DNA from: a virus
DNA: 64,000 nucleotides
Reading direction: 5' to 3' (one strand)
Virus record (IMG/VR): IMGVR_UViG_3300018424_000008
Span: 1 to 64,000 of that record
Shown here piece by piece: positions 34,624-64,000 of the stretch. A program made the translations under genes and the position numbers. The notes beneath the pieces were generated by a model. The model made no database searches. It saw only the letters and a list, made by a program, of their open reading frames with translations, and was not told the DNA's origin. Every line of letters begins with the position of its first letter. The first letter of the stretch is position 1.

Positions 34624-35646
34624 CTATCTTTTAAAGTTGAACTGCAGCTTCGGCGGAGATGACTCAGCTTTTATTTTGCCCATAACATCTACATAAATAG
34701 TTTCTTTATAATATTTTGCAGGAATATGTGTTGGCGTATAAACATAATAAACATGCCAACCTAAAGGAGCACTGCGAGAATCATATACTTCCATCTTTGC
34801 ATTTTTGCTAAATTCAGTATCAATATAAAAATTCATTCCAAAATTATCTGCATCAATCTTAGCCGGATCAAAAACAATAAAACATTTATGCTGATTAGCC
34901 TTTTTGCCAGAAGCACTCAATCCCGACATTTGACTGATAAAATATGCAAATTCCTGCAACTTCTGAGGATCATTATAATCTTTCTTGTCAATAAGCATTA
35001 AATATAATCTGCCTTTACCAAAATCATGACCATATCTTGCTTTTCCACCAGTAGGCTTAAGACCTTTTGATTTAATAGAGGCTTCATTAGCTTCAGCAGT
35101 ATAATGAACAATTAATTTATCTTGAATGCCCTCAATGCCGGCAAAGTAACTAGGATTTTTTTTGTGTGGTAATGGTTGCAACAACATAGTAAACTTCATT
35201 ATCAAATGACTTGGTTCTAACCTAGTCTGACCAGTGTTAACAACATGCCACCCTCTAGCATTACACCACTTTCTAAAATCATTAACAAATGAATCATAAA
35301 CTTTACTAAATTCTTTATATCCTTCATCTTCAAAATACCTAATTGTATTCCTAGTGTAACCAGGCGGAAGTGGAGACAATAGCATTGAATCCTCAATTGC
35401 CCCAATAATCATTGGTTCTATAATAAATTCTAGCTTGATAACACCAGTATAGTTAATATGAGTGTCACCACGGTACTTCATCTTAAAAGTTTCAGTTTTT
35501 TTATCATACTCATTATAATATGAGAATTGCAAACCGGTTGTGACTAAAATATCTTTAAAATATTCCCTAATCCTGTTAATCATGTCCTGATGATTGACAC
35601 TAGTTATATTCTCTGTTATAACATTTCTGATAAATTCTCTAATCAT
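34624..35646 (-). CDS. ADP-ribosyltransferase-like protein with class B targeting helix
   Basis: 340 aa. N-terminal helix MIREFIRNVITE (I-T-E) followed by NITSVNH. The C-terminal half resembles small ART/KptA-type folds: KLIVHYTAEANEASIKSKGL near 180 (H-Y-T with following I-x-x-x-G-L), then R-L-Y-L-M and late strands CFIVFDPAKI, WHVYYVYTPTHIP. Residues 1-170 form a separate domain (GDTHINYTGVIKLEFII). If packaged, it would enter the host with the DNA, as T4 Alt does. The ART assignment rests on pattern only and the catalytic residues are not certain. Confidence 0.7.
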   Translation of the reverse strand: MIREFIRNVITENITSVNHQDMINRIREYFKDILVTTGLQFSYYNEYDKKTETFKMKYRGDTHINYTGVIKLEFIIEPMIIGAIEDSMLLSPLPPGYTRNTIRYFEDEGYKEFSKVYDSFVNDFRKWCNARGWHVVNTGQTRLEPSHLIMKFTMLLQPLPHKKNPSYFAGIEGIQDKLIVHYTAEANEASIKSKGLKPTGGKARYGHDFGKGRLYLMLIDKKDYNDPQKLQEFAYFISQMSGLSASGKKANQHKCFIVFDPAKIDADNFGMNFYIDTEFSKNAKMEVYDSRSAPLGWHVYYVYTPTHIPAKYYKETIYVDVMGKIKAESSPPKLQFNFKR

Positions 35647-35677
35647 ACAATAACTCCGATAAAATATAATTATCTAG

Positions 35678-36535
35678 TTATTTATAAAATCCCCAGTGCA
35701 TCGTTAAATCATATATATTCATGTCAAATTTAAGTAACACAATGTGTTCCTCATTACCATGTATATCAGTATTAGATCTCCCAATTATTTTATATTGTTC
35801 GAAACCTAAATTAGCTAACAAATCCCTGTGCTTTCTGTAAAAATCTTTATCATTAGGAGCTGAAACACCGAAAATAAGTGAATACTTGTGACCACGATTA
35901 GGAACAAATACGTCTAACTCTGACAATTCAGATATATTGTATAATATGGTTGCTGTTTCATCTACTATTTGATATCCCCAATCTTTAACTCCAAATCTTT
36001 CACTACAGTTTAAAAGTATAGATAAAAATCCTCTTTTTTCTTCGCCGCCACGAAAAAAACCATCTTTGTCAATCAAACTAATTCTAACAGCAGAAATTAC
36101 CTCATAATTTGAATCATCATCCTCTTTCCCAACAATATACAAATTATTATGCAACCAAACATATCTATCACGATTACCGGGTATCTTTAACCCATATGAC
36201 AATGCATTACATATATCTTCATTATCAATATTTCTAACAAACATCTGATGCTTTGCATGTGTCTCATATTCTATATTGTTTACTGCCCGGCCACCACGCT
36301 TAGGGCCTTTCATTACATTAAGTATCATATTTGTGTCATTACTAGCAACCTTTACCAATACATTGTTCAAGTAATAACCAAGCTTTCCATTTTCCTTCCT
36401 GTCCGCAACACGATACAATTTAAACTTCTTACCCCAGCTTAAAACATCCAACACATTCTGCTGTACAGCTTCACTCTCTAAACTAGGACCATTATAATTA
36501 TCTAAATTGTATCCAGCATCCGTTAACTTACACAT
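35678..36535 (-). CDS. hypothetical protein without targeting helix
   Basis: 285 aa, AAGGAGG before ATG 36535. It starts MCKLTDAGYNLDNYNG, with no amphipathic helix, unlike its neighbours. Beta-rich segments (YVWLHNNLYIVGK, ISAVRISLIDKDG) are followed by FYRKHRDLLANLGFEQYKI near 240, a helix-turn reminiscent of the end of GNAT domains, then HIVLLKFDMNIYD. A palindromic sequence lies upstream. Function unknown. Confidence 0.75.
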   Translation of the reverse strand: MCKLTDAGYNLDNYNGPSLESEAVQQNVLDVLSWGKKFKLYRVADRKENGKLGYYLNNVLVKVASNDTNMILNVMKGPKRGGRAVNNIEYETHAKHQMFVRNIDNEDICNALSYGLKIPGNRDRYVWLHNNLYIVGKEDDDSNYEVISAVRISLIDKDGFFRGGEEKRGFLSILLNCSERFGVKDWGYQIVDETATILYNISELSELDVFVPNRGHKYSLIFGVSAPNDKDFYRKHRDLLANLGFEQYKIIGRSNTDIHGNEEHIVLLKFDMNIYDLTMHWGFYK

Positions 36536-36605: not shown

Positions 36606-37550
36606 TTAGCTTTTTCCATATTTTTCAACGCGGTTAAAAATGTCAAAATTCAACCGAAAGTCATGAGCATATCGATCGCCACCCTTGCCGTCTTCGCCTA
36701 GCAGAGGTCTAATCTTATTTTTCTTTTGATCACCATGCTCGTAGTAATTCAAAAAATTCAATATGCCTTCTACACATTCTTTTATTGCTTCATCGCTAAA
36801 GTTTAAAATTGGTCCATCATCCCTTTTGTTTTCAGGCACGAAATATATAGGGTTTGAACCTCTATCTTCTGTTTCAGGACGGCTAGTGCCGAAGAATAAC
36901 TTTTGTACTTCTCCGGTCTTGTCGGATAAATATTTTTTTCCATATTTTTTACCAACAGCATCAACACCGGCCGGTATACCAACATGTTGACGTGCTTTGG
37001 AGGGTTTATCGAAGCCTAAAGCTATATCACGCGGAGAAAATGTAGCACTAATTTCTTGATCCTTATGTGCAGCATTTTTTTCCTTTTCTTTGTGGATAAC
37101 ATAATCATGTTTAGGTATTGACCCACCAAGCTTGTCTTCCAATAAAACTAATTTTCGTTTGGTCAATTTAATTACTGGTACTTTGCCGCTAACTTCCAGG
37201 AGTGCTGAAATACTAACATTTGCATATTTTTTCTGTGTTTCAGTACTATATTCACCGACTGAAGTTTTGGCTAATATTGGTAAATCTCTTATGTCAATGT
37301 TTAATTCGAGCCTTGGGTGTGCTGCATTTCGATCTGCTTGTAAATCATAATACCTCAGATCAACCTTCACTGGCGTTTGCATAGTAAGAAAATTATAAAT
37401 GTTAGATGCACCTCGCCCTAATGAACCCATAAACTCACCAGTGTGTATTTTCACCCGGTCCATAAATGTCTCTTGCAACAAGTCTCTTACACGCTTCCTA
37501 GCATATTCCTCAGCAATAATCTTTTTCAAAGTTGTCTTTTTAATTTTCAT
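36606..37550 (-). CDS. class A targeting-helix protein, unknown body
   Basis: 314 aa, GGGGT before ATG. The first 27 residues (MKIKKTTLKKIIAEEYARKR, then VRDLLQE) are almost identical to those of the next gene upstream (37572-38255), but the bodies differ. The predicted cleavage follows L-Q-E, before TFMDRV. The body has strands (VKVDLRYYDLQADR, PRLELNIDIRDL) and ends in LRPLLGEDGKGGDRYAHDFR, somewhat like the C-terminus of its neighbour. Function unknown. Confidence 0.8.
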   Translation of the reverse strand: MKIKKTTLKKIIAEEYARKRVRDLLQETFMDRVKIHTGEFMGSLGRGASNIYNFLTMQTPVKVDLRYYDLQADRNAAHPRLELNIDIRDLPILAKTSVGEYSTETQKKYANVSISALLEVSGKVPVIKLTKRKLVLLEDKLGGSIPKHDYVIHKEKEKNAAHKDQEISATFSPRDIALGFDKPSKARQHVGIPAGVDAVGKKYGKKYLSDKTGEVQKLFFGTSRPETEDRGSNPIYFVPENKRDDGPILNFSDEAIKECVEGILNFLNYYEHGDQKKNKIRPLLGEDGKGGDRYAHDFRLNFDIFNRVEKYGKS

Positions 37551-37571
37551 AATACTACCCCATATTTTAAT

Positions 37572-38255
37572 TTATGATAAATCGCCAGTTATATTCCAAG
37601 ACCAAGTAGGGGTGTCATCACCTAGTAGTCTTCGGTTCTTACCACCATAAAAATAATATAATTTTTTTAATATTTGATCAGTTATTGATTTTACTGATTC
37701 TTTGGTTACAGGCCTGTCCCCATAAACACGTTTGTTCCTGCCATCTTCATTTGGCACCATTTCACTGTAGAAAAAAGCTGGGCTTTGAAATTGGATGTCC
37801 TCACTTTTTTTGAGACCTTTTGTACCAAACGGACCTCCAAATCCATATTCACCCGTTCTTCTTGCAAAGTTCACCTGTGCATCAGGTCCCTTGAGACCCA
37901 TTACAATAGGAACATCTCCGACATGTGTTACACGTGTGTCTCCATTTTTTAGCTGTTTTAAATTTAACTCTGCTCTGTACAAGAAGTGAGGAAAACTTGA
38001 GCTGTGACGTGCAGAAATTCCGGAATTTTTTATTGTAAACTCAATTTTAAGATTATAATCTTTTCCACGTGTATTTTCTTTAACTTCTACTTTTATTGCA
38101 TCACGCATTCTTAACCAGTTATAAGCACCTTTCGCCATATTCAACACCGGTGATTGATCAAAATCAAACATTCCCTCTTGCAACATGTCTCTTACACGCT
38201 TTCTCGCATATTCCTCAGCAATAATCTTTTTTAAAGCTGTCTTTTTAATTTTCAT
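37572..38255 (-). CDS. class A targeting-helix protein, paralogue of the previous
   Basis: 227 aa. N-terminal helix MKIKKTALKKIIAEEYARKR then VRDMLQE; the predicted mature start is GMFDFDQSPV. Shared features with the 314-aa protein: AIKVEVKENTRGKDYNLKIE strands, a Y-F-Y-G-G-K helix end and the R-R-L-L-G-D-D segment near the C-terminus. Thus a tandem duplication with diverged bodies. Function unknown. Confidence 0.8.
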   Translation of the reverse strand: MKIKKTALKKIIAEEYARKRVRDMLQEGMFDFDQSPVLNMAKGAYNWLRMRDAIKVEVKENTRGKDYNLKIEFTIKNSGISARHSSSFPHFLYRAELNLKQLKNGDTRVTHVGDVPIVMGLKGPDAQVNFARRTGEYGFGGPFGTKGLKKSEDIQFQSPAFFYSEMVPNEDGRNKRVYGDRPVTKESVKSITDQILKKLYYFYGGKNRRLLGDDTPTWSWNITGDLS

Positions 38256-38268
38256 GATATTACCCCCC

Positions 38269-39165
38269 CTATTGATATTTTTTATTTTTATTTTTGCTTA
38301 AGTCATAATAATCTTCAGCTTTTTTCTGCACTGCTTCCCTATCCGGATTGCCCTTTTCCCCATACATGAAATGACCAAAAGTTTCCAAATCTGACATGTC
38401 TGGAGCAGTACCAGTTCTTAAATCTATTTTACTACCAGGATTTAATTTGGATATATCTTTATTCACCAACTGTTGATGAAAATCTCGTCTTACATTCTCC
38501 GCATCACCAAAAGTTTGCGGCATGTTAAATATATTCTCATCAGCTTCACGCCAACCCTTAGAATAATTACGACGACTTTCAAAATCCCAACTGTCACCTT
38601 CAAAATCAAACATGTACTTGAAATAACCATTATCGCCAGATACCTTCCGGAAATTATGTACAGGTCCCTTCAATGCTTTAGTCCCTAACCATGATGGTAT
38701 ATATTTATCCCATATCTGCATTGGGCTTTGTCTGTCTACCCTGCTTCCCCACCATCTGCCATCTAGATTTAAACCCAAAGTTTCATAATCATCACCAGAC
38801 AACCTAGTTTTTCTAGGGTCACCATAATACCACAACAACAAATCTTCCAAACTATCAGGCACTTCTGACGTCAGAAAACTTTGCGTAGAAGACAAGTCAG
38901 ACAATAACTCAACAGCCTTATCATAATCTCGTTTAGGCATTCTAGGATAGTATCTTGTAAGATTTTTGAGGTGCTCCAACGCCTGATCATACCTTAATTC
39001 CTTGTCAGATATCATACGCTTTATTTCCGCCACAATATCTTCAACAGGTACCTTCTCAGCAGCCATGCCCTGAAGTTTGTAGTATTCCTTCGTAGATTCA
39101 TTAAGTCTAGACTTTCGACTCAGCTCCTCACGAATAATACGCTTTAACGCACCCTTTTTTATCAT
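38269..39165 (-). CDS. class A targeting-helix protein
   Basis: 298 aa. The start MIKKGALKRIIREELSRKSR then LNE is followed by STKEYYK. The body: a helical region (about 30-110: EDIVAEIKRMISDKELRYDQ, LEHLKNLTRYYPRM), a Trp/Gly-rich region (LDGRWWGSRVDRQSPMQIW), and an acidic/basic C-terminus. No known domain. Confidence 0.8.
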   Translation of the reverse strand: MIKKGALKRIIREELSRKSRLNESTKEYYKLQGMAAEKVPVEDIVAEIKRMISDKELRYDQALEHLKNLTRYYPRMPKRDYDKAVELLSDLSSTQSFLTSEVPDSLEDLLLWYYGDPRKTRLSGDDYETLGLNLDGRWWGSRVDRQSPMQIWDKYIPSWLGTKALKGPVHNFRKVSGDNGYFKYMFDFEGDSWDFESRRNYSKGWREADENIFNMPQTFGDAENVRRDFHQQLVNKDISKLNPGSKIDLRTGTAPDMSDLETFGHFMYGEKGNPDREAVQKKAEDYYDLSKNKNKKYQ

Positions 39166-39204
39166 TTAATTACCTTTTATTTAATTTTAGTATTAAATGT
39201 AATA

Positions 39205-39822
39205 TTATTTAAGCATGAGCCTAATTTTTCTTCTTATATTTTCTTCTAAATTATCTTCACTTGGATCATAAAGATTATCTTCTTTTTCGTCATAAAAGGT
39301 GTTAGGCAAGCTAGCTCTATGTTTTGCATAAGCTTCTGTATCACCGCCAGGGCCACTAACACTCAATTGACCACTTCTGTGTAATTTCATTAAATCAGAT
39401 GAGCTTACATCAATACCAAGTTCCCTAGACAAATGACCAGCCCAGACATTACAGAAATTTTCCACAACATCACCGCCTCTTCTTCTTACCGAACCCATAT
39501 CCAATGATATTCTAGAACGATTGCCATATTTTTCTCGTTTCTCTCTGCTTGTTTTACCTCTTAAACTTGTTTCATGTTTCATATTTTCCGCTGCTATGTT
39601 ATGCGCCTGATGTCCAATAGATCTTTCTTGAGATCCCATATGCGAGCCATCTTTAAATACGGCAAAAAATGTTGATGATAGCTCTCCATCAGGGCCTTTA
39701 GCTATATCTACATTTAACTGTTGTAGTTTTTTACCCGCACTCTCATTGAGCATACGTCTGAATTTTAGTCTTGTGTATTCTTCACGTATAATTTGTCTTA
39801 GTTGTTTTTTTGATATTTTCAT
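39205..39822 (-). CDS. class A targeting-helix protein
   Basis: 205 aa. MKISKKQLRQIIREEYTRLK then FRRMLNE is a textbook class A helix, with predicted cut before SAGKK. The body contains SSTFFAVFKDGSHMGSQERS, a basic R-G-K-T-S-R-E-K-R segment, and NFCNVWAGHLSRELGIDVSS. The C-terminus ENIRRKIRLMLK is itself a basic amphipathic helix. Function unknown. Confidence 0.8.
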   Translation of the reverse strand: MKISKKQLRQIIREEYTRLKFRRMLNESAGKKLQQLNVDIAKGPDGELSSTFFAVFKDGSHMGSQERSIGHQAHNIAAENMKHETSLRGKTSREKREKYGNRSRISLDMGSVRRRGGDVVENFCNVWAGHLSRELGIDVSSSDLMKLHRSGQLSVSGPGGDTEAYAKHRASLPNTFYDEKEDNLYDPSEDNLEENIRRKIRLMLK

Positions 39823-39833
39823 GGTTGTCCCCC

Positions 39834-40073
39834 TTAATATGAGCTAATAGCTTCTTCAATTGTTTCTATATTTGCATGTGGAAATTTTGATTGTATATAT
39901 TCTATTAAACTTTCTTTGGTCATGACATCTAATAAATGATCTATTTCATCCATAGCTAATCTAATTGAATCTACTAAATCTTCATTAATCTCTTCATTAA
40001 GTATCCTGCGATTTTGCAAACGCACATACTCTTTTCTGATAATTTGCTTTAATTGCTTTTTTGATATCTTCAT
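39834..40073 (-). CDS. short class A targeting-helix protein
   Basis: 79 aa. MKISKKQLKQIIRKEYVRLQ then NRRILNE, leaving a predicted mature peptide of only about 52 residues (EINEDLVDSIRLAMDEIDHL, then KESLIEYIQSKFPHANIETI). The body is acidic and helical. It is one of the smallest cargoes and follows a promoter-like gap at 40074-40174. Confidence 0.78.
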   Translation of the reverse strand: MKISKKQLKQIIRKEYVRLQNRRILNEEINEDLVDSIRLAMDEIDHLLDVMTKESLIEYIQSKFPHANIETIEEAISSY

Positions 40074-40174
40074 TTGCTTCCTTAAAATCTATACCAATAA
40101 ATATAAACAACAAAATAAAAAACACGAAAAACTTTTGGCGCGCGATACACCCATAGATCACCACGTACAACAAT

Positions 40175-40193
40175 GTCTAGGCTCCCCCTAGAC
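40175..40193 (-). terminator. hairpin after the 40197 gene
   Basis: GTCTAGG / CCTAGAC stem with a 5-base loop directly after the stop codon, followed on the minus strand by ATTGTTGT. A weak T-tract makes it a moderate terminator. Confidence 0.55.
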
Positions 40194-40196
40194 ATC

Positions 40197-40592
40197 TTAT
40201 GCAACAGATCTCCGCGGCAAATTATCAATCACAACCTGCTTCAATTCCTGCCTAAACTGCGGATCATTTTTATTTTCCAACAACCAAGCTGTTACCTTTG
40301 CAGCTGCACCAGGCAAACCAAAAAACCCAGGCATCGTTGGTGGTATTACAGTTTTCACACCAGAATTATACAATGTCTGATACTGTTGCCAGTTTATAAC
40401 ACGGCACCTTTTATAAACATACTCACGAGCCTCAGTAGCATATTTTCCTTTTACTAAACCAAATACCGCGCCTTTTAAATTACCAGTCTGCGCCTTGTCA
40501 GCCAAACCATTAAGGTAATCTTCTAACCCCGGGTCAATAGACTCACGAAGAATCATTTCATATATTAATTTTCTTATGTACCTTCTTAACAT
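40197..40592 (-). CDS. class B targeting-helix protein inside the class A cluster
   Basis: 131 aa. MLRRYIRKLIYEMILRE followed by SIDPGLED; I-Y-E and L-R-E are both possible cut sites. The body has helices (YLNGLADKAQTGNLKGAVF, AREYVYKRCRVINWQQYQTL), a Gly/Pro segment (IPPTMPGFFGLPGAAAKV) and a final helix. Function unknown. Confidence 0.75.
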   Translation of the reverse strand: MLRRYIRKLIYEMILRESIDPGLEDYLNGLADKAQTGNLKGAVFGLVKGKYATEAREYVYKRCRVINWQQYQTLYNSGVKTVIPPTMPGFFGLPGAAAKVTAWLLENKNDPQFRQELKQVVIDNLPRRSVA

Positions 40593-40598
40593 GTAATA

Positions 40599-41120
40599 TT
40601 ACTCCGGGAGAAATAATTCTAATAATTTAATTACTTGGTCTTCTCGACCATATCTAGCTATTAAATCGGGCCAAGTTTCAGATTCATCTGTACTCCCGGG
40701 AGGCCGGCCCATTTGAGTTAAATAATTGATATCGACATGTTCTTCTAGAATATTGTTCCTAATCCAGTCGCAGTAACCAGCACATCTTCTCAACATTTCT
40801 ATTAATGCATCAATTTGTTTGTGTCTGATATTATCATCAATGTCCCACCAATTATATGCCTCTATTTCTAGAAATTTAGCATTTCTAATTACAACCCAGT
40901 TTTGTGGTCTTTCGTAACTATATTCATCACCATATAATTCATGCAAATATGAATCATGATCGATTACATGACTTTTATCCGGATTAGCCATTCGATATTC
41001 TTCTATATCATGCAAATTGCCTTGATCATCGATGAAACCAAATGATATATAATTACAGGCTGTGTTAGAAGTTTCTAACAGTATGTTTCTAATATATTTT
41101 CTTAGTGCGAAGCCTAGCAT
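40599..41120 (-). CDS. class B targeting-helix protein
   Basis: 173 aa. MLGFALRKYIRNILLE followed by TSNTACNY. The start lies inside the 3' end of the preceding gene (32-bp overlap, other frame) and directly after DNA that encodes a class A helix in that other frame. The body has NWVVIRNAKFLEIEAYNWWD and an acidic helical part (DALIEMLRRCAGYCDWIRNN). The residues YGDEYSYERPQNW do not match a known motif. Confidence 0.75.
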   Translation of the reverse strand: MLGFALRKYIRNILLETSNTACNYISFGFIDDQGNLHDIEEYRMANPDKSHVIDHDSYLHELYGDEYSYERPQNWVVIRNAKFLEIEAYNWWDIDDNIRHKQIDALIEMLRRCAGYCDWIRNNILEEHVDINYLTQMGRPPGSTDESETWPDLIARYGREDQVIKLLELFLPE

Positions 41121-42090
41121 TGTTTAATCTCATTTTTCTTCTATATTCTTCTCGTATTATTTTCTTAAGAGCAGACTTAGGTATTTTGTAAGATTCAAGC
41201 TTGTGAATACCTTTCTTCCCCTGTGATAAAGCAGGCGAAATAGTATCAGTAACAAACTTAGCCGTACCAAATAATTCTATGGCTTGTTTAACCCATGCAA
41301 TCGGACCAGCAAACTGTTCAATCGCTTTACCTGCTAATTTTTCCACAAGCTCCTGAATTTTGTTCTTGAACTCTTCGACAAAACCAAATTTTTCTTTAAT
41401 AACATCAAACACTTTTTCCTTGACAGCATCTAAAACATCTTCCTTTGCATCTTCTATTTTACCAGTAAGATAGTCTAATACTTCCCCTTTAAAATGTTTA
41501 ACTGGTTCTTTTAATATTTCAATAGCATTACCTAGCTTGTCACTGATTTCAAAATTATCATCTAAATATTTTACACCTAGTATATACGCTAAGTTTGACA
41601 ACAAGCCTTTCCAACCAGAGATTTTTGCTACACTAACTCTGAAACTATCTATAGTCTTAGCAATCTTATACAAGCCTTTTGCAAATGTTGGCATGTTGTA
41701 TTTTTTTAAATAATCGCCTATTTTATTAATTTTGTTAGCAATATTTTTACCTGCAGCCCTCCCGGAGTATTGCACGAAAACATTAATCTGCTTAAGCATT
41801 TTTCCATTTTGCACAGCTGCTGTAAGAGCAGCAACAATACCCTTGACGTCTGAACCAAATTCGTTTATTGCTTCGATTGGCTCCATGGCCTTTTTTTTAA
41901 TTTTATTAAAACCCTTACCTAGAAATTTTTTAGCAGGATCCCACCAACTTTCAAAAAGCAAATGTTCTCTAAGAATTGCCTCTTGTAGCTGGATATTATA
42001 ACGACCCTCAACTAGTAATCCGCGTTCGAAACCTAGTACCTCTACGATATAATTTTCACTTAACTCATGCGGTGTTATTAAACTTGACAT
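41089..42090 (-). CDS. amphipathic-helix-rich protein with a class A helix at its C-terminus
   Basis: 333 aa, AAGGAG before ATG 42090. It does not start with a targeting helix but has L-L-V-E-G and L-L-F-E-S near residues 25 and 45. The body is long lysine-rich amphipathic helices (NKINKIGDYLKKYNMP, VKEKVFDVIKEKFGF) and a hydrophobic part (AIEQFAGPIAWVKQAIELFG). Near residue 305 it reads KIPKSALKKIIREEYRRKMR, a full class A helix, and ends 10 residues later. The last 32 bp overlap the next gene. Colicin-like or membrane-active function is possible; unproven. Confidence 0.75.
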   Translation of the reverse strand: MSSLITPHELSENYIVEVLGFERGLLVEGRYNIQLQEAILREHLLFESWWDPAKKFLGKGFNKIKKKAMEPIEAINEFGSDVKGIVAALTAAVQNGKMLKQINVFVQYSGRAAGKNIANKINKIGDYLKKYNMPTFAKGLYKIAKTIDSFRVSVAKISGWKGLLSNLAYILGVKYLDDNFEISDKLGNAIEILKEPVKHFKGEVLDYLTGKIEDAKEDVLDAVKEKVFDVIKEKFGFVEEFKNKIQELVEKLAGKAIEQFAGPIAWVKQAIELFGTAKFVTDTISPALSQGKKGIHKLESYKIPKSALKKIIREEYRRKMRLNNARLRTKKIY

Positions 42091-42101
42091 TGATTTACTC
42101 C

Positions 42102-42422
42102 TTATTGTATATTCATTTGACTTTCAAAATGTAGTTGAACAGCTGCTAATACTCCCGCTTCAGCATCTTCACAGCCCATCTCAATACAGCACTCTCTTAC
42201 ACATTTATGCATAGTGATACTAAAACGTCGACCCTGCATTAATTCAAGTTCGACTTTCGTACGATGTAGATTTAGTTTTTCTATACATTTCTTGATGCAT
42301 TCTTCAACAATATCAGCTGACGACTCGTTCAGAGTGCTGAATGCGTACGCGTTCCACAATCTTCTGTGTCTTGCATACTCTTCCTTAATAATACGTTTTA
42401 GTGTCTTTCTAGATATTTTCAT
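42102..42422 (-). CDS. class A targeting-helix protein
   Basis: 106 aa. MKISRKTLKRIIKEEYARHR then RLWNAYAFSTLNE (L-N-E), followed by SSADIVEEC. The mature part (about 72 aa) contains five cysteines (ECIKKCIEK, KCVRECCIEMGC) spaced as in a helical zinc-site or disulfide protein. It ends QLHFESQMNIQ. Function unknown. Confidence 0.78.
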   Translation of the reverse strand: MKISRKTLKRIIKEEYARHRRLWNAYAFSTLNESSADIVEECIKKCIEKLNLHRTKVELELMQGRRFSITMHKCVRECCIEMGCEDAEAGVLAAVQLHFESQMNIQ

Positions 42423-42438
42423 ATTTATCTCCTAACTA

Positions 42439-43074: not shown

Positions 43075-43075
43075 G

Positions 43076-43879: not shown

Positions 43880-43899
43880 AGAAGCCTCCTTTGTTATGA

Positions 43900-56360: not shown

Positions 56361-57046
56361 ACTTCAATCCCCATAGCTCTCACCCGATCTCCATGTACTG
56401 CTTCTCCGTTCATGATAAATTTGAACGTAAGCAATCCCATATCGTATAAAGCATTTATCGTGTTAGTATGCATAGGTTTCTTTATAAATTTGTTTGTTGA
56501 AAAGTGATTTGCATAAGTTAACTCATCTATTTCGTTCGAGGATTTGGATCCATCATACTGCCTCTGGGAACAATCGTCAGAAGGATCGTTCGGTGTTATC
56601 CACGGTTCATCTCTGTAATCAAGCAATATTGCTTCAACGTCATCCCGAGCTCCTAGATAATGATACCAGACTTTTCTTGCCTTTAAAGATGTTATATGCC
56701 GATCAGACATGATCCCATCTTCACCAGCAAACTCCATCGCAAGATCATATAAGAGTGGACCTAAGCCAGAGACAGATTCAACAATGCCAGCATCCTCAAC
56801 AGACCAAGCGCTATCACAGTTGCCTTCCCCATAGTAGTTATCATTTTGCCAAACCAAATATAACTGCCCAACGTTCCCAAACCTGGGATTTGGATCTCCT
56901 GTTGCTGGTCTTTTCTGAGCCTGAAGCCAGATCTGAGATGGACCAACTTTGAATACTATATGGATGTTTTTGTCTTTCATTAGTGATGGTGTATACATCC
57001 CTTCTGTTAACAATATGTTCCTTATATACTTTCTTAATTGTTTCAT
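56357..57046 (-). CDS. class B targeting protein with degenerate GNAT-like domain
   Basis: 229 aa. MKQLRKYIRNILLTE (L-T-E) followed by GMYTPSLMK. The clearest copy of the block is near 95: G-L-G-P-L-L-Y-D-L-A-M-E-F-A-G-E-D-G-I-M, S-D-R-H-I-T-S-L-K-A-R-K-V-W, Y-H-Y-L-G-A-R-D-D-V. Upstream strands LYLVWQNDNYYGEGN fit the GNAT core. The C-terminus reads ITPNDPSDDCSQRQYDGSKS. The putative CoA loop is degenerate. Function unknown. Confidence 0.77.
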   Translation of the reverse strand: MKQLRKYIRNILLTEGMYTPSLMKDKNIHIVFKVGPSQIWLQAQKRPATGDPNPRFGNVGQLYLVWQNDNYYGEGNCDSAWSVEDAGIVESVSGLGPLLYDLAMEFAGEDGIMSDRHITSLKARKVWYHYLGARDDVEAILLDYRDEPWITPNDPSDDCSQRQYDGSKSSNEIDELTYANHFSTNKFIKKPMHTNTINALYDMGLLTFKFIMNGEAVHGDRVRAMGIEV

Positions 57047-57738
57047 TTTACTTTCTCTGCTATGTCAAAAAAATTAGAGCCATCTCTTTTTAATAATTTT
57101 GATTTTCTTCTGTCAAGTCTATAAACAGCCATAGGTTTCAATGGACCTTCGTGAGCAATGTCAGCACCCATATCAATCAAACTTAATTTTTCTTCATCAC
57201 TCATTACATCTACTAAATATCTTCCCCCCGTCGCAAAAGCATCATATTCACCGCCAACTAAGGCATCATACAAACTATAGTAACCCAAACCTTGTCCTTC
57301 ATCATCGTATGGCTCTTCTTCTAAATAATATTTTGCCATTTGGTCAAGCCAGGGCACCTCTTTATTGTATATCATTTCTCCTATGCTATCTTCATCTGGA
57401 TGTATATTAGATAAATCTTTGCCAGCAATTGCAAATACGTATCCGTATCTACCATACTTTTCCTCTAACTTTGATGTGCCATGACCCGCCATATCTCCGC
57501 CAAGTGCATACATTTGTACGGTCGCAATACTTGGTGTTATATAAACCATACCATCTACTGGTCGAAGCGGACCTGACCTATTTGATAGATCGGGTGGTTT
57601 TATCTCGCCAGCTGACATTATAGACTTTGCATATTTTTCAATCGGTGTACCATGATAATAAACAGTGTCAGAGTGATCAGTGCTAGGTGCTGCCATCTCT
57701 CTTAGCAAGTTTTGTATGTATAATCGCAAATGTTTCAT
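57043..57738 (-). CDS. class B targeting protein: ADP-ribosyltransferase-like
   Basis: 231 aa. MKHLRLYIQNLLRE (L-R-E) followed by MAAPSTDHSD. ART-like pattern: T-V-Y-Y-H-G-T-P near 27, with a following I-x-x-x-G-x-I-K-P, and G-M-V-Y-I-T-P-S-I-A-T-V-Q-M-Y-A near 63, fitting the H-Y-(E) group of small ART folds (KptA/PARP-like). A late glutamate-rich segment (PDEDSIGEMIYNKEVPW) may supply the third residue. It is followed by a coiled-coil membrane protein. The substrate is unknown. Confidence 0.75.
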   Translation of the reverse strand: MKHLRLYIQNLLREMAAPSTDHSDTVYYHGTPIEKYAKSIMSAGEIKPPDLSNRSGPLRPVDGMVYITPSIATVQMYALGGDMAGHGTSKLEEKYGRYGYVFAIAGKDLSNIHPDEDSIGEMIYNKEVPWLDQMAKYYLEEEPYDDEGQGLGYYSLYDALVGGEYDAFATGGRYLVDVMSDEEKLSLIDMGADIAHEGPLKPMAVYRLDRRKSKLLKRDGSNFFDIAEKVK

Positions 57739-57746
57739 TTTGCCCT

Positions 57747-58217
57747 CTATTTTGGTGGTAGTGTATCACCGTGAGCCATGGCAACAAGATTTCTAACACG
57801 ATTTTCTTGGTCCATCGATTTTACTAATTCACCTATGTTTTTAACTTGTTCATTTATCTGACCGACTTGATTTTTTATAAAATCTATGTCATCACCGTCA
57901 GCATCTTGCTTAACTAAAAAGTTTGAAGTTTTCTGATCTATTTTTTGCACTATTGATCCAACAGCTTCTACTCTTTGTTTAATTTGCAACCTCATTTGTT
58001 TCTTTTCACTGTCATACTTTGCTATGACATCATCATATCTTTCACGCAGTAATTCTTGATCACCTTTGTGAATGTTTTGCATTTCTTCTAGTTGAACCTG
58101 AAACCTATCTACTAGTGCATCCATTCTGGCTTGCATATTTGTATAAAGCCATATTAAGAATGCTGCAAATATTCCTAATGAGCCGTGGTCTAATAACATT
58201 TCTAATATTTCTGTCAT
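57747..58217 (-). CDS. membrane-anchored coiled-coil protein without targeting helix
   Basis: 156 aa. One N-terminal membrane helix (HGSLGIFAAFLIWLYTNM), then a long coiled coil (MDALVDRFQVQLEEMQNIHK, YDSEKKQMRLQIKQRVEAVG) to about residue 140. This layout resembles BhlA/holin-like or spanin-like phage envelope proteins, but the coil is long. It is the only clearly membrane-anchored gene in the class B cluster and may be part of a lysis or delivery apparatus (inference). Confidence 0.7.
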   Translation of the reverse strand: MTEILEMLLDHGSLGIFAAFLIWLYTNMQARMDALVDRFQVQLEEMQNIHKGDQELLRERYDDVIAKYDSEKKQMRLQIKQRVEAVGSIVQKIDQKTSNFLVKQDADGDDIDFIKNQVGQINEQVKNIGELVKSMDQENRVRNLVAMAHGDTLPPK

Positions 58218-58771
58218 TCTTCTTGTCCTCCATGTGTATGTTTAAATGGTCGAATATTTCCTACAGCATCATCTGTATTTCTTATGCCTGTGGCTGATCG
58301 AGTTTGTTCGTCTATCTCATCTTTAAAAGATGGCACCAGTCCATACATGTCTATTACTTCTTTACATTGTTCAGCAATGTGCCTCAGTTCATCAGTATCT
58401 CTAACACTAAATGCAAAGTTACCAATGTATGTTTTCTTATTAGCAATAAACCAAAGGGCAATCATAACTCTATCTGGTGTGTGTAGATTTGAGTATTTTC
58501 TAAAAATATCTACATCCCAGCTCCAAAAAGTGTGACGTGCCAAGTCATGAAATTTATCCTCTAATGTTTCTTCTTCTGCCATTTCATCTACATCTTCAAC
58601 AGTACTATACCATTCTTCGCCTATCATGCCCTCACGTAAACACTCATCAAAGTCTTGTCGAAATTTATCATTTAAACCATAGTAACAATCACTGAAAGTA
58701 TTCCAGCTTAACCATTGCATGTTGATAGATTCTCTTAAAATATTCCTAATATATTTTTTTAAATTTTTCAT
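58214..58771 (-). CDS. class B targeting protein, related to the next
   Basis: 185 aa. MKNLKKYIRNILRE (L-R-E) followed by SINMQWLSWN. The second half (PDRVMIALWFIANKKTYIGN, F-S-V-R-D-T-D-E-L-R-H-I-A-E-Q-C-K-E, Y-G-L-V-P-S-F-K-D-E-I-D) resembles the C-terminus of the 335-aa protein. Thus a domain is shared between neighbouring cargoes. Function unknown. Confidence 0.78.
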   Translation of the reverse strand: MKNLKKYIRNILRESINMQWLSWNTFSDCYYGLNDKFRQDFDECLREGMIGEEWYSTVEDVDEMAEEETLEDKFHDLARHTFWSWDVDIFRKYSNLHTPDRVMIALWFIANKKTYIGNFAFSVRDTDELRHIAEQCKEVIDMYGLVPSFKDEIDEQTRSATGIRNTDDAVGNIRPFKHTHGGQEE

Positions 58772-58783
58772 AATCAGTACTCT

Positions 58784-59791
58784 TTATCTATACTTGTCTA
58801 TTTGAGAGCTAGACCAACCTGGTCCAATTTGTTCATCTACATCTCTGTTCCACTGCATGTCGCTAATTTTATCTTCGAGGTCTTCAGGCATCATTACACC
58901 AAATTTTTTGCAAGCTTCTTCCACCTGTTTCGCTACATCGTCCAAATCAACACTTGAATAAGTAAGCATGCCTAGGTCTAAACCATCTTCCTTTACCACA
59001 GCGAGTGCCATAATTGCTCTGTCGATGTCGCTGAAATAGCCGCTTCGCCAAAAATTTGAACTTCCGGGGTCTTCGTACTCTTGATCAATAAATTCTTCCA
59101 CCGACATTTCACTCCACATTGGATCATTTCCGGGTACATAACCTCTATCATCAATATCGTGAGTGTCAACAAGCAACTCGTAGATTTCCGGATACATTTC
59201 GAAAGCCTGACCTATGGAAGCTGGTTTTGGTTTGATTTCATTAGATGGGTCATGGAATAATAGTTTATGAGATTTGATTGCAGCTTTGTTCCATACACAA
59301 CCCTGATCAATATCATATCCACTTAGCCAGCGCGGTCCATGTGGTAGAGGGCAAAATTCAATACCCGCAAACTCGTCAGCAACTGCATGCCAGTCAGGTG
59401 AGGCAAAACTCTCACCTTTAACGTATATACTAGTAAATTTTTCAAATGCTTCATCACTATCTATTTTACAAACTGCATTAGCATCAGGTTTGTCAATGGT
59501 TGTATAATTTACTTCTAATCTGTACAGAAAAGCTCTTCCTTTTTTAAACTGACCCATCATATTATCAGGATTTTTAACATATCGAAGCCACTCATCACCG
59601 CAAGCATAAAATAAGCCATGAGGTTTTGGCGTAAACTCGCCTGTCGGCTGTTCTATGTTATTTAACTTTTCAACATCTAACTCTGATTGTAAAACAGTTA
59701 ACAACTCACCTTCATCAGCCGGCTGAGTTTTATAATCAAATACAGACAATTCTGTTAATAGGTTTCTTACATATTTTCTTAATGTTTTCAT
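58784..59791 (-). CDS. class B targeting protein, two-domain, partly ART-like
   Basis: 335 aa. MKTLRKYVRNLLTE (L-T-E) followed by LSVFDYKTQ. Domain 1 (about 55-185): HGLFYACGDEWLRYVKNP, FLYRLEVNYTTI, W-H-A-V-A-D-E-F-A-G-I-E-F-C-P, Y-D-I-D-Q-G-C-V-W-N. I recall similar G-L-W-Y-A-C-G-D-x-W proteins in other phages, of unknown activity. Domain 2 (about 220-315) is shared with the 185-aa gene (FSDIDRAIMALAVVKEDGLD). The ART-fold idea is speculative. Confidence 0.75.
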   Translation of the reverse strand: MKTLRKYVRNLLTELSVFDYKTQPADEGELLTVLQSELDVEKLNNIEQPTGEFTPKPHGLFYACGDEWLRYVKNPDNMMGQFKKGRAFLYRLEVNYTTIDKPDANAVCKIDSDEAFEKFTSIYVKGESFASPDWHAVADEFAGIEFCPLPHGPRWLSGYDIDQGCVWNKAAIKSHKLLFHDPSNEIKPKPASIGQAFEMYPEIYELLVDTHDIDDRGYVPGNDPMWSEMSVEEFIDQEYEDPGSSNFWRSGYFSDIDRAIMALAVVKEDGLDLGMLTYSSVDLDDVAKQVEEACKKFGVMMPEDLEDKISDMQWNRDVDEQIGPGWSSSQIDKYR

Positions 59792-59800
59792 TTTGTTTTT

Positions 59801-60973
59801 CTAGTATATTTTATTAGCTTTATTCATTTCATGGTTTTTCTTAACATTAGGCGAGAATATGTCTAAAAAACTATCTCCATCAACATCTTCTAAAAACCTA
59901 TTGTACATATCTTTTGTACTGTCATCTAAATCTTCTTCTTCAAATCGCAATTCATCTTCTATCATAATTTCTTTTTCTACTGCACATGCATCATAAAAAT
60001 CTATATCTAAGTAGCCATCTTCATCAATTATTGGTATATCATCATAACATGTATCATGGAAAAAATTATCAGATGCTTCAGAATTAAAAAATGCTTGTTT
60101 CATTTCACTAGGTATACAAATCGCTACAATTTCCCAGTTGTCAATGATAGCTTCTGGCCAGTTTAAATCCATGCCGCGGTTTCCATCATCATCTAGTATG
60201 TCATCAAAAGGATTTAAGTCCTCTTTTCCTTTTATTATTATATCATATATATTGCTAATTTCGCCTTCTTTATCTTGCAACATGACGTCATCGCTACCGT
60301 ATTTAATATTGTCAGCTGCATCATCATCACCCTGTTCAAGTGCTTCAATGTATTCTCTTGATTTAGAGGCGCGGGTTTCAAGAGATGCAACGTCAGGTCT
60401 AGAAGGTACGCCACTAGTTTTGTATTGGTTATACATATATGCTAATTCAGTCGGTTTTAACATTGTAACCAACTTATTATAATTTTCTCTGTCACGATGT
60501 GTAATGTACTTTTTTAGACCTGGATCACGCTTGGCTTTTACTATTTTGTCATACGACTTTAACAACTTTAAAAATCTACCCGGCCGACCCGAATCTAAAT
60601 CAACTTTTGAGGCAAATGTTACATATCCATCAATCACAATGCCTATAACATGCTCATCCATCAGCTTAAAAGGTTCGAAAGTTTCTTCAGTTTTGTGGAT
60701 ATATGTATTAATCTCATTTCTTTGTCGACCACGTACATTAAAATATAAATCGACCGCTTGTTGAAAAGGTGCCCAATGAATATAGGTTAAACCATCTTTT
60801 AATCGACTTTGCCCTTTTGCTCCACCAGTTGTTTTCTGAAAAAACTGTTTTAGCTGTTTTGCTTGGGTACCTTTGTATCTACTAGATCGGTGGTGAAGTA
60901 AGTCACCCATCTGTGCTAGCTTCTCACCTTTTTCAGTGATAACATTTCTTATATATTTCCTTAAGTCAATCAT
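59801..60973 (-). CDS. class B targeting protein, possible ART-like toxin
   Basis: 390 aa. MIDLRKYIRNVITE (I-T-E) followed by KGEKLAQMGD. Near residue 110 EHVIGIVIDGYVTFASKVDL; near 275 NWPEAIIDNWEIVAICIPSE, the E-x-I-I-D-N-W strand also seen in the 487-aa protein. The C-terminus is very acidic (MIEDELRFEEEDLDDSTKDM). The shared strand suggests a common enzymatic core in two of the largest cargoes; activity unknown. Confidence 0.73.
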   Translation of the reverse strand: MIDLRKYIRNVITEKGEKLAQMGDLLHHRSSRYKGTQAKQLKQFFQKTTGGAKGQSRLKDGLTYIHWAPFQQAVDLYFNVRGRQRNEINTYIHKTEETFEPFKLMDEHVIGIVIDGYVTFASKVDLDSGRPGRFLKLLKSYDKIVKAKRDPGLKKYITHRDRENYNKLVTMLKPTELAYMYNQYKTSGVPSRPDVASLETRASKSREYIEALEQGDDDAADNIKYGSDDVMLQDKEGEISNIYDIIIKGKEDLNPFDDILDDDGNRGMDLNWPEAIIDNWEIVAICIPSEMKQAFFNSEASDNFFHDTCYDDIPIIDEDGYLDIDFYDACAVEKEIMIEDELRFEEEDLDDSTKDMYNRFLEDVDGDSFLDIFSPNVKKNHEMNKANKIY

Positions 60974-62008
60974 TCACTTCACCTTCTGATATGGTTTCCA
61001 CCAAGTGTTGTCTTTATAAATACATCCAAAATATGATTCTATTAATTCTAATAAACACTGATCGTTTGGTGCATCATCATGGCCGAACTCCATAAAAAAT
61101 GCATTAAAGTATTGTAAAGCTTCATATATAATGGCATTATTGTTTTGCACCGATACTTTTTGTTTTATTTTTACACCTATGTCATACAAATCACCATCAG
61201 ATAAAATACCATCAAGTGCAGGGTTATATACAATAGGAGCATCTCTATTTTCTAAATCTACAGCAGAAAGTTTATGGTTTGTATTATAGTTGTGTAATGA
61301 TGGCAAATCATCTAAGTTAGTACTAGTTATTTTTTCTTTTTCAGAGTCCATTAATATAAAATCATATTTGTCGAAAAGATTTTTATTTCTTATGTATTTA
61401 TAAAAATTCATAGCAGCATCAGTAATTGAAGGTATTACCTTTTTGTTCCCACGTTTGCCGACTTCTTTTTGCCCTCTATCCGGAACCATGATTTTTGGAT
61501 GCAAATGTGATAACATCATATCTTTCATTAGTGGCCCAAATTTAGAGCCTATGTGCGCTGCAGTGTATTCAATGTAATAAGAATTTTTTGAGGAACTAGT
61601 CGGTTTTGCTTTAATCATTCCATCAATTGAAGCAAAGAACATCCAAAGATCACCACGATATTCATCTGCGCCATATAAATCAATTGCTTGCGGTTCTTCA
61701 AACTCAAATGGTTCATACATGTAATATTTTTTTACCAATGGTGCAACTTTTCTTAAAGCACCGTCATTATTATTTGCATCGTTTATTGCTTCAATAAATT
61801 TTTTGCCAAGTTTCGTCAGCTGACTAGTCGGTGCAATATTCTGTTTTGCACAGTTGATGTATTCATCGATCAAGCTTTTGTTAAATAAAGCAATCATTAT
61901 ACATTCAGTTCCAGTACTGTCAGCTCCTTCGTAAACATATGTATAGTGGTTACTTACACCAGGATTAACGTAATTCTCAAATAACAATTTTTCTAAACTA
62001 TAAGTCAT
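60974..62008 (-). CDS. cargo-like protein with short L-F-E start, distant GNAT-like relative
   Basis: 344 aa. The start is shorter and not basic (MTYSLEKLLFE then NYVNPGVSNHY) but still ends L-F-E followed by a small residue, so it may be a variant targeting signal. The block near 150 (GSKFGPLMKDMMLSHLHPKI, M-V-P-D-R-G-Q-K-E-V) aligns with the GNAT-like family. The C-terminus has QNNNAIIYEALQYFNAFFME. It lies between two class B genes. Function unknown. Confidence 0.72.
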   Translation of the reverse strand: MTYSLEKLLFENYVNPGVSNHYTYVYEGADSTGTECIMIALFNKSLIDEYINCAKQNIAPTSQLTKLGKKFIEAINDANNNDGALRKVAPLVKKYYMYEPFEFEEPQAIDLYGADEYRGDLWMFFASIDGMIKAKPTSSSKNSYYIEYTAAHIGSKFGPLMKDMMLSHLHPKIMVPDRGQKEVGKRGNKKVIPSITDAAMNFYKYIRNKNLFDKYDFILMDSEKEKITSTNLDDLPSLHNYNTNHKLSAVDLENRDAPIVYNPALDGILSDGDLYDIGVKIKQKVSVQNNNAIIYEALQYFNAFFMEFGHDDAPNDQCLLELIESYFGCIYKDNTWWKPYQKVK

Positions 62009-63123
62009 TATCTTTCTACCATACGTTTTCTAAAAAAGTTTAATAATATACTGTCATAATTATCATGGTCTTCACAGAATTCCCAAAAATCTACTTCTAA
62101 ACCGTGCCAATTGTTAAGATGATGTACAAGGTCACCTAATTCACCTTTAACATCTGTGTGTCTGCGTTGCAATATACTATGTTCCCAAGAAAATGCACTA
62201 GTGTTATAGCTTAAATCTAGTGCCACACTGTCAGGATCGTTCTCTGTAAAATCATCTTTAATACTATCCCATGGCACTTCATTATGTAAGTCATGTTCTA
62301 TTTCCCAATGGTCTTCCATCCATTGTTCTTCTATTTCTTCTACTGTTTCGCTATCATTTCCAAAATGATTTTTCATCCAATTTATAATTATAAATGGCGA
62401 ATTCGCTCTATCAGCCCAGCCTTGTTTTTTGCAAATATCAACAATATCTTTATCAAAATTATTTTCAAGCCACATCATAAAAGCAGTGTTATATGCTTGT
62501 CGCAGCGGGGGGTCGTCACTCCAATAGGATTCTGTATCGTCAAAATCAGTCATAGTAATTTTTGCATCACCACCATCAAGGTATTTCTTTTCTATATCCG
62601 GTCTTTTAAATGCATAAGTGTTATAAACTTTTCTAGCCGACGACGACACTTCTTCTCTATCAGAAGTTATGCCATCTCCAAAATAAGACATTGTTAAATC
62701 ATATAGTGTCGGACCATAACCTTCTATGGCTGCAGCTCTTGTAATTTGCATTGCACCATTAGTATTTTCACCCTCCTGGTTTTCCGCTCTAATTGCTGCT
62801 TTAGTGCAATCGTAAAGCACAGAATAAAACTCATCAGAAATTTCATTATAAATAGCAGTACTAGCATCTCTGTTATCTATAGCCGCGGCCGCAACAGCAT
62901 TTCCTGCATCTGTGTGAACCTCATATGATTTTTCTATAACTTTTTTCATTTCTTCTAAAAATTTTACCCTATCATAAAGTATGCATGTGTAACCGCCCAT
63001 GAAAACACCGCCACCCGCACTTGCATGATATAGTGCCATGTTGTCTAACACCTCATTACTCTTAGGTGATTTGTAACTAGATTCTATTATTATATTTTGT
63101 ATTAGCTTTCTTAGAGTTTTCAA
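62008..63123 (-). CDS. class B targeting protein with degenerate GNAT-like domain
   Basis: 371 aa. MKTLRKLIQNIIIE (I-I-E) followed by SSYKSPKSNE. MGGYTCILYDRVKFLEEMKK is followed by the block G-Y-G-P-T-L-Y-D-L-T-M-S-Y-F-G-D-G-I-T near 135, S-D-R-E-E-V-S-S-S-A-R-K-V-Y. The second half (LDLSYNTSAFSWEHSILQRR) is homologous to the end of the next gene. Tandem duplication. Function unknown. Confidence 0.77.
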   Translation of the reverse strand: MKTLRKLIQNIIIESSYKSPKSNEVLDNMALYHASAGGGVFMGGYTCILYDRVKFLEEMKKVIEKSYEVHTDAGNAVAAAAIDNRDASTAIYNEISDEFYSVLYDCTKAAIRAENQEGENTNGAMQITRAAAIEGYGPTLYDLTMSYFGDGITSDREEVSSSARKVYNTYAFKRPDIEKKYLDGGDAKITMTDFDDTESYWSDDPPLRQAYNTAFMMWLENNFDKDIVDICKKQGWADRANSPFIIINWMKNHFGNDSETVEEIEEQWMEDHWEIEHDLHNEVPWDSIKDDFTENDPDSVALDLSYNTSAFSWEHSILQRRHTDVKGELGDLVHHLNNWHGLEVDFWEFCEDHDNYDSILLNFFRKRMVER

Positions 63124-64000
63124 TTTTCTGCTCCTGCGTAGTGCTCGTCGAAAAAGCCAATTAATATACTCTGGTATGTATTAGACTTTATTTTTTCAAA
63201 CATGCCAGCAAATGATTCTTCAAGTTCATAGCCATTGTATAATATATCCTCAACCATTTCATTTAAAATAAATAAAAAGTCCTCGTGTGCTTTTGTTAAA
63301 CTTTTAAAAGCTTCTTTTGCATAATCAGTGTTAAAGCTTAAATCTAACTCTTCATTAGGTTCAAAAACCTGAGTTGGTGAAAATTTAAATAAGTTTCTTT
63401 CTATATTTTCTTTATCAGACTCCCACTGCGAAACAATATCATCTATAACAAAATCCTGTGAATAATACTTTTTTATTAACCTTACAGCAGTGTAAGGGTG
63501 TTTACTAAAATATACGCTATCCACAGCATCATATAGACCCGGGTCATAACTTTTTAACCATAATTCAAAAGCATCCTTGTACGCATTTTCTATCATTTTA
63601 TTATTTCCAGCATGATCTGGACAGTCATCATTACTTATATCCGTGACACTATCTGGGTCTAAGTATTTTTTCTCAATATCTGGCCGTTTCTCTGCATAGA
63701 AACGATATACCTTTCTCGCAGAACGGCTGACAGAACCCCTATCTGGAATTATTCCATTTTCCTCTATCGACATAACTAAGTCATACAGCGTAGGTCCATA
63801 ACCTTCAATAGCTGCAGCTCTGCTTACTTCCGAAGCGAGATTGCAGCTGTCGAAGGGTTCTTTTGTTTGTATTACAGCGACAACACAGTGAGGAAGTATT
63901 GCAGTAAACACATTTCTCAGAGAAGATTCAAATTCTGATGACATGTAAAAAGTATATTCGTCACCCGGGGTGATGGGTTCTTCGTTAGCAGCGTAAGCAG
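63120..64000 (-). CDS. GNAT-like paralogue, N-terminus beyond window
   Basis: The frame is open from the stop at 63120 to the right edge of the window (upstream of the internal ATG at 63944 it reads AYAANEEPITPGDEYTFY in frame), so the true start probably lies outside, where a class B helix is expected by comparison with its neighbour. The visible part: ASEVSRAAAIEGYGPTLYDL, I-I-P-D-R-G-S-V-S-R-S-A-R-K-V-Y, then LDLSFNTDYAKEAFKSLTKA. Homologous to the 371-aa gene throughout. Confidence 0.75.
   Translation of the reverse strand, partial: AYAANEEPITPGDEYTFYMSSEFESSLRNVFTAILPHCVVAVIQTKEPFDSCNLASEVSRAAAIEGYGPTLYDLVMSIEENGIIPDRGSVSRSARKVYRFYAEKRPDIEKKYLDPDSVTDISNDDCPDHAGNNKMIENAYKDAFELWLKSYDPGLYDAVDSVYFSKHPYTAVRLIKKYYSQDFVIDDIVSQWESDKENIERNLFKFSPTQVFEPNEELDLSFNTDYAKEAFKSLTKAHEDFLFILNEMVEDILYNGYELEESFAGMFEKIKSNTYQSILIGFFDEHYAGAEN

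Follow-up and report, generated by a model that had tools for sequence, protein, structure and literature searches.

The 64,000-base stretch of viral DNA analysed here (the window) comprises bases 1 to 64,000 of IMG/VR virus record IMGVR_UViG_3300018424_000008, a record of 99,413 bases that is classed as linear and is probably a fragment. In the window, 35 genes begin with a short leader that ends at L/I-x-E. These leaders are very probably capsid-targeting propeptides of the bacteriophage T4 kind, carried here by an exceptionally large set of cargo proteins. A preliminary description of this DNA had proposed such an interpretation, and comparative evidence now supports it: a gp21-type protease and a gp23-type capsid protein in related phages, an L-x-E/A site in that capsid protein, similar helices in head modules, and the exchange of leaders on related cargo. 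Packaging and cutting of the tagged proteins are likely to the same high degree, and injection of the cargo with the DNA is likely but less certain.

Gene starts were set by rule at the upstream-most ATG, so that some N-termini are wrong, for example that of 62008. Leaders and cut sites were chosen by eye, which gave 35 leader-bearing genes in the window and 44 on the whole record. The window set is made up of 14 class A genes, 19 class B genes, gene 60974-62008 and the gene across the window edge (Table 1). The preliminary description had counted at least 33 proteins with targeting-like N-terminal helices, about 14 of class A and about 19 of class B, with outliers at 1767 and 11213; both classes were found in these numbers where it had placed them, and both outliers are present and belong to class B. 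Further copies of the helices occur beyond the window, in the remaining sequence of the record (labelled L001 and L002), where nine more leader genes were found, two of them beginning large proteins of 1403 and 744 residues. The leaders are 11 to 33 residues long with a mean net charge of +3.0, and their consensus is MKISKxQLKxIIREEYxRxxxRxxLNE for class A (13 of the 14 window genes plus one from L001) and MxxLRKYIRxIIxE for class B. The claim that they end at L/I-x-E followed by a small residue held firmly at P3, which is L or I in 43 of the 44 curated sites, and less strictly at P1', which is S, G, A, T or N in 33 of the 44 (background 29%, binomial p 3.6e-10, a count that is not blind since the cut positions were picked by eye) and some other residue in 11. 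The claim that the rest of each protein differs was not fully right because some bodies are paralogous: most are unrelated to one another, but 43076 and 44466 are paralogues (41% identity, with no relative found outside a contig with identical proteins), and so are seven GNAT-type proteins.

A regular expression was made for the helix core; like the one for T4-like leaders used below, it was written after the leaders had been viewed. It matched 32 of the 124 genes of the record, each within its first 16 residues, and in 27 of them [LIVM]-x-E-[GASTDEN] follows. In 300 shuffles of the first 40 residues the means were 1.2 for the core and 0.3 for the core with the site (maxima 4 and 2), and none of 430 body windows of the record gave a match.

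A search of viral contigs with a class A profile uncovered at least 23 loci, among them G004 (273 kb), G003 (167 kb) and G005 (191 kb), and G032 (288 kb) was added by a profile of the GNAT family that had its patterns in the class B leader. These four genomes were all picked up through leaders (the class A motif led to G003 and G004, and the class B motif in part to G032); LR756508 (484 kb) was picked up by its capsid protein, and the 139-kb stretch around its capsid gene was chosen after a motif search. As judged by sequence, G004 and G032 are true relatives of the window phage. By blastp at 1e-5, 49 of 122 record genes matched G004 and 46 of 122 matched G032, some of these matches covering the leader only, and several further genes are 55-72% identical in G004 and G032 over most of their length with the order kept. 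The sole match of record genes to T4 at the same threshold was a NUDIX protein, and two contigs carry proteins identical to those of the record. Against phage records, megablast with window bases 1-20000 gave no match, and tblastn with a class A leader gave nothing beyond E=8 matches in Rhizobium phages. The regular expression matched 38 of 330 genes in G004 (shuffled mean 2.5, maximum 9), 40 of 367 in G032 (2.9 and 8), 10 of 177 in G003 (1.4 and 5) and 19 of 144 in the LR756508 stretch (1.2 and 6). As in the window, clusters of class B (31.9-45.3 kb) and class A (53.0-59.8 kb) are close to each other in G032.

The related phages also encode the machinery that such leaders would need. A gp21-like protease (PF03420, family S77; positive control T4, E 4e-113) gave no match in the 99-kb fragment but was found above cut-off in G003, G004, G005, G032 and LR756508, and likewise in LR756511, immuto, Mel-JY01 and RM378. 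The gp23 family PF07068 matched in G003, G004, G005 and G032. The T4 record states that gp21 cleaves gp23, at a position that we take to be FLTE then A. Aligned with this site, the capsid proteins read LLRE/AN in G003, VLRE/AN in G004, LLRE/AS in G005, LLKE/AS in LR756508, IVSE/AN in immuto and LISE/AN in Mel-JY01; G032 carries LLRE/AN in the same stretch as G003 and G004, LR756511 reads LFNE/I, and RM378 is without the motif. In relatives of the window phage, the alignment places the predicted cleavage motif of the leaders at the maturation site of the capsid protein. Class A-like helices also occur close to the protease gene. G003, G004 and G032 each encode, one gene downstream of gp21, a small protein whose class A-like start ends IL-I/V-E then G; phage records gave no match to the one of G004. 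A related start occurs in G005 at 124455 (CIKEVIFE then D), with class A genes 120812 and 121593 just upstream of gp21, in G004 gp23 is followed by class A genes, and LR756508 has its protease match at 156.5-158.1 kb, surrounded by class A genes (152-163 kb). These helices near gp21 suggest that the leader may imitate a helix found in a core protein. A further form of leader, the third (MKLIMExWRxYLxE and similar), was also seen at 32566, 33252, 38682, 122564 and 123559 of G005, two copies of it directly after gp21, and at L002:10284-11228.

Related cargo was found behind different leaders. Relatives of the ADP-ribosyltransferase (ART)-type protein 57043-57738 were collected with two body patterns only, so that the leader had no part in their choice. 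The 38 loci found give 24 distinct N-termini, and in 18 of these the conserved body is immediately preceded by a glutamate, 17 times as L/I-x-E and once as Y-T-E. The sequence ahead of the body varies: it is class B in the window and in G004, and six T4-like leaders read MRFKEFLAE, MRFKQYIHE, MKFKQYIIE, MISFKLYITE, MVSFKTYITE and MNFKTWYTE. PF03420 matched in 11 of 19 records with related ART cargo, 10 of them above cut-off. Short T4-like leaders, counted with an expression that does not match T4's own leader, begin 11 of 72 genes in parts of G019 (shuffled mean 0.06), 7 of 132 in G017 (0.09) and 1 of 75 in parts of G020 (0.06). The relatives of 1767-2033 start with MKITRSQLRRMISLITE then A (class A, G003), MKTLRETIRRIILE then T (class B, G004) and MKTTETNLRIIIESIILE then S (neither class A nor class B, G032), all ending at L/I-x-E and continuing with the same body. 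L001:7448-8254 and its G004 relative have different leaders and agree from VRGYIKP on; the G004 relative of the 11213 protein starts MSKLRE then EIGRNY, and in G032 the match is to part of a longer protein, which does not have the 11213 leader. The G004 relative of 34624-35646 (251182-252393, 25% identity) shows MLIREYIRDIIVE then N inside a longer open frame. On these sequence comparisons, cargo swaps leaders between phages with the final glutamate kept, which bears out the earlier description of interchangeable modules: the leader in front of related cargo can be of class A, of class B or of the short T4-like kind, with the glutamate just before the body. Tandem genes with short T4-like leaders (MKFKQYL-x-E type) form further tagged sets in other large phages (L130, L134, L138 and G019 15001-35000), and several of their bodies show by eye a YRG motif as in ARTs.

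The basic charge of the leaders would also suit an amphipathic helix, unrelated to the head, that serves in infected cells as an address for the membrane or nucleoid. Against such an address stand the glutamate at the leader end with a mostly small P1' residue, the recurrence of this motif at the aligned capsid maturation site, the class A-like helices in head modules and the exchange with T4-like leaders on the ART cargo family. Membrane addressing is disfavoured, and we regard it as very improbable.

Another explanation would be that the leaders are alike through repeated recent duplication of one gene start, and the genes are indeed in tandem and mostly on one strand. For codons 2-15 of the class A genes other than 38269 and 44466 (omitted for length offset or start, which left 12 of the 14), the amino acid agreed in 575 of 924 comparisons (62%), and at these positions the same codon was used in 275 of 575 (0.48 versus 0.49 expected from phage codon usage). 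The 12 tested bodies had no mutual blastp match at E 0.01. Synonymous codons at the level of independent draws rule out recent duplication for class A and indicate that its leaders are old and held by selection. In class B (14 of 19 genes, identity 0.51 over 10 codons) the likeness of synonymous codons is a little above expectation (0.53 versus 0.44), and some recent copying is therefore possible in this class. The leaders, however, recur in distant phages such as LR756508, and recent duplication as the source of their likeness is scarcely credible.

ART, zincin and GNAT-like members had been proposed among the cargo; models back the first and the last, and for the zincin (55071-56360, no Pfam match) the support is a HEFIH motif. 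The AlphaFold2 model of 57043-57738 has a predicted local distance difference test score (pLDDT) of 89.4, falling below 50 at residues 13-15, the proposed cut. Its best structural match is Tpt1 (Z 8.4, root-mean-square deviation (rmsd) 3.3, 89 residues aligned), and the 50 matches listed are nearly all of the ART superfamily; Foldseek alone was weak (best E 0.04). Over half of its length the protein also shares 39.8% identity with a Tunturi_5 phage gene that carries the annotation ADP-ribosyltransferase. These data point to an ART-superfamily cargo. The model of 56357-57046 (pLDDT 74.9) matches GCN5 best (Z 8.6, rmsd 2.9, 117 aligned); the other matches listed have Z 6.0-7.7 and are nearly all GNAT-fold, and Foldseek alone was again weak (HAT1 best, E 0.03). 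This model points to a GNAT-fold cargo. Taken singly, such Z values are not strong, and it is the uniform family among the matches that argues for both folds. The GNAT-type family has seven members on the record (56357, 53204, 54229, 62008, 63120 and two beyond the window), which were aligned with nine from G004; by sequence, nothing matched it in Pfam, PHROGs or PDB. The PDB was searched by sequence with both the GNAT profile and the ART, neither of which gave a match, and the 10 proteins compared with PHROGs had none either. Pfam gave matches below cut-off only, and no MuF domain, for 40 proteins (9 others and 31 of the 35 window leader genes, all but 1767, 11213, 39834 and 45626).

The cargo could also be packaged and processed and yet serve, above all in the case of the small class A proteins, as filler of the head core or in organising DNA rather than being injected to act on the host. 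Class A-like helices do begin small head-module proteins near gp21, and several class A bodies are short (79 to 151 residues) with no Pfam match above cut-off. The class A genes vary, however: 8 of the 14 have no blastp match at 1e-5 in G003, G004, G005 or G032, and the six that do mostly match over 24 to 72 residues from the leader on, the exceptions being 45265 (94-99 of 114 residues) and 39834 (all 79, in G032). Class B cargo, moreover, includes the proteins modelled as ART and GNAT folds. We consider the filler role unlikely, but less so than a membrane address.

Several observations weigh against capsid targeting by these leaders. The 99-kb record and the two contigs with identical proteins gave no match to PF03420 or PF07068; as fragments, they provide no evidence of absence, but the link to protease and capsid protein runs through relatives. 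The matches did not rise above the shuffled maximum in G005 (6 of 219 genes, shuffled mean 1.6 and maximum 6; with the site, 5 versus a maximum of 3), and no excess was seen in immuto (5/218), Mel-JY01 (4/232) and T4 (4/253), all within shuffled maxima. LR756511 and RM378 had no class A model match although the protease is present. The matches of the expression include false ones, such as a terminase start, and body windows matched in 5 of 650 (G003), 12 of 1125 (G004) and 5 of 675 (G005) cases. Four of the 18 ART N-termini with the glutamate (L122, L124/L125, L140, L143/L144) need an internal start in a longer frame, and 6 of the 24 are without it (L142, which is cut off, L146, L151-L153, L155, L157, L158). 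The G032 relative of L001:7448-8254 has no leader in the open frame as called, and the codon excess of class B belongs here as well. The class A helix of 41089-42090 is C-terminal, 29 residues from the end, the only match in the record that is not N-terminal. T4 Alt is also processed at its C-terminus (PMC9026906), and the address may not have to come first in a protein. A looser motif of hydrophobic spacing is hardly enriched in T4 itself (33/250; shuffled mean 19.4, maximum 32) and was rejected as a detector on its own.

Under capsid targeting, the basic N-terminal helix would bind the prohead core during head assembly, perhaps by imitating the helix of the small core proteins encoded near the protease, and each cargo protein would thereby be built into the prohead. 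A gp21-type (S77) prohead protease would then cut after L/I-x-E and release the mature protein within the head. The cargo may enter with the DNA at infection and act early on the host, candidate effects being ADP-ribosylation, acetylation, perhaps proteolysis, and the inhibition of defences. A more specific model, which we put forward as doubtful, is that class A copies the core-protein helix encoded near gp21 and class B uses a second dock, giving two separate prohead addresses. If so, one virion would load two cargo sets at different places, in different amounts or at different times. Together with the short T4-like leaders, the two addresses would form a general code, readable from sequence, in T4-like and giant phages, and the injected effectors, exchangeable and present in dozens, would be about as numerous as those of a bacterial secretion system.

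Table 1. Leader-bearing genes and related features of the window.
Feature	Position	Strand	Leader and remarks	Basis
Class A cluster, 14 genes	36606..46844	-	M-K/R-I-S/T/K-K-x-x-L-K/R-x-I-I-x-E-E-Y... to L/I-x-E, with variants	leader
Class A members	36606, 37572, 38269, 39205, 39834, 42102, 42439, 43076, 43900, 44466, 45265, 45626, 45967, 46389	-		leader
Class B cluster	49032..64000	-	(M-x-x)-L/I-R/K-x-Y-I-R/Q-x-I-L/I-x-E; runs on beyond window	leader
Class B cluster members	49032, 50492, 51028, 51605, 52462, 53204, 54229, 55071, 56357, 57043, 58214, 58784, 59801, 62008, 63120	-		leader
Gene across window edge	63120 to about 64187	-	MSSLRLLVSQIIAE then A; class B cluster; start outside window	
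Outlier, class B leader	1767..2033	-	MENLRNFIRQILNE then T; relatives in G003, G004, G032	sequence
Outlier, class B leader	11213..11494	+	MYKFNLKKYIRYIISE then E	sequence
Class B leader, ART-like by eye	34624..35646	-	MIREFIRNVITE then N	sequence
Class B leader in class A cluster	40197..40592	-	MLRRYIRKLIYE then M, or MILRE then S	sequence
Class B leader in class A cluster	40599..41120	-	MLGFALRKYIRNILLE then T	sequence
Zinc-protease-like motif HEFIH, class B leader	55071..56360	-	MNHLRQYIRQTINE then S	motif
GNAT-fold cargo (predicted), class B leader	56357..57046	-	MKQLRKYIRNILLTE then G	model
ART-superfamily cargo (predicted; YYHGT), class B leader	57043..57738	-	MKHLRLYIQNLLRE then M	model, relatives
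Short T4-like leader	60974..62008	-	MTYSLEKLLFE then N	sequence
Possible class A-like start	32349..32642	-	MLVNKKLVRKLLKEVHNE; outside count of 35	
333-residue protein, class A helix near C-terminus	41089..42090	-	helix at position 304 of 333; outside count of 35	

Other genes of the record were noted beside these. Two large proteins of 1583 and 1652 residues (21686-26437 and 26412-31370, both on the minus strand) have N-termini that are similar by eye (LLLxENKKxLI...LPNKxxxWL) and no Pfam match, and are possibly packaged too. A DUF444 protein, a DUF2201 metallopeptidase/VWA-like protein and an AAA_5 (MoxR-like) ATPase (521-1705, 7232-8638 and 8950-10047, minus strand) lie in one region and are conserved at 61-72% identity in G004 and G032. 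A transfer-messenger RNA (tmRNA) gene with the tag ANNNKHFEAAAIAA is found at 33472-33819 on the minus strand (Rfam, 101 bits), where the permuted-tmRNA model also matches an overlapping stretch. At L002 1-3730 (minus strand), two genes resemble by eye the large and small subunits of carbamoyl-phosphate synthase.

The sequence evidence suggests that this phage injects, along with its DNA, a protein cocktail of unusual size. The leader serves as a search tag: it marks dozens of genes, almost none of which belongs to a known family, and points to a large pool of proteins, host-modifying enzymes included, that phages are likely to deliver as soon as infection begins; relatives hold numbers of leader genes similar to the roughly 44 of this environmental phage fragment. 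The leaders also make a mechanistic question testable, namely by what the address is recognised in the prohead core and whether the two leader classes have different partners. The principle itself is already known from the literature on T4 internal proteins (Ips), their leaders and packaged ARTs. The first ten residues of T4 IPIII suffice for targeting, and residues 4 and 7 of the T4 leader matter for targeting and 8 and 10 for processing (PMC9026906), which fits the hydrophobic-x-x-hydrophobic-hydrophobic-x-E spacing of the present leaders; T4's own leader, MKTYQEFIAE, was located in the T4 record. Each of the T4 proteins Ip1-3 blocks its own type IV restriction enzyme, and among T4-related phages at least 10 Ips, recognised by their leader, are reported (PMC12373910). 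The T4 head holds at least eight internal proteins in all, and ARTs are thought to be commonly packaged in phage heads (PMC9503650). Among the matches listed in our literature search, titles and abstract openings held no report of a leader set of this size, of two basic classes or of exchange with T4-like leaders; the scale, the leader classes and the cargo look new.

Giant phages of the phiKZ/SPN3US type likewise package several proteins that a prohead protease cuts after a glutamate, as is proposed here. The motif in those phages, however, is A-x-E or S/A-x-E and several of their propeptides exceed 100 residues, in contrast to the L/I-x-E and the 11 to 33 residues found here (PMC5694885, PMC9026906). 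Head-packaged ARTs, MuF-fused effectors and polyvalent proteins are likewise enzymes thought to travel in the head, with ARTs common among them (PMC9503650); unlike the MuF fusions and polyvalent proteins, the present set has mostly one cargo per short leader, and no MuF domain was found in the 40 proteins scanned. The closest likeness is to IPI, IPII, IPIII and Alt of T4, which have a short N-terminal leader of the same spacing on mostly unrelated mature parts, an S77 protease and a gp23-type capsid protein, found here in relatives, and an ART, Alt (PMC9503650), among the cargo. T4 has three Ip genes (PMC12373910), whereas here 35 leader genes lie in 64 kb, and their leaders are longer than those of T4, basic and of two classes.

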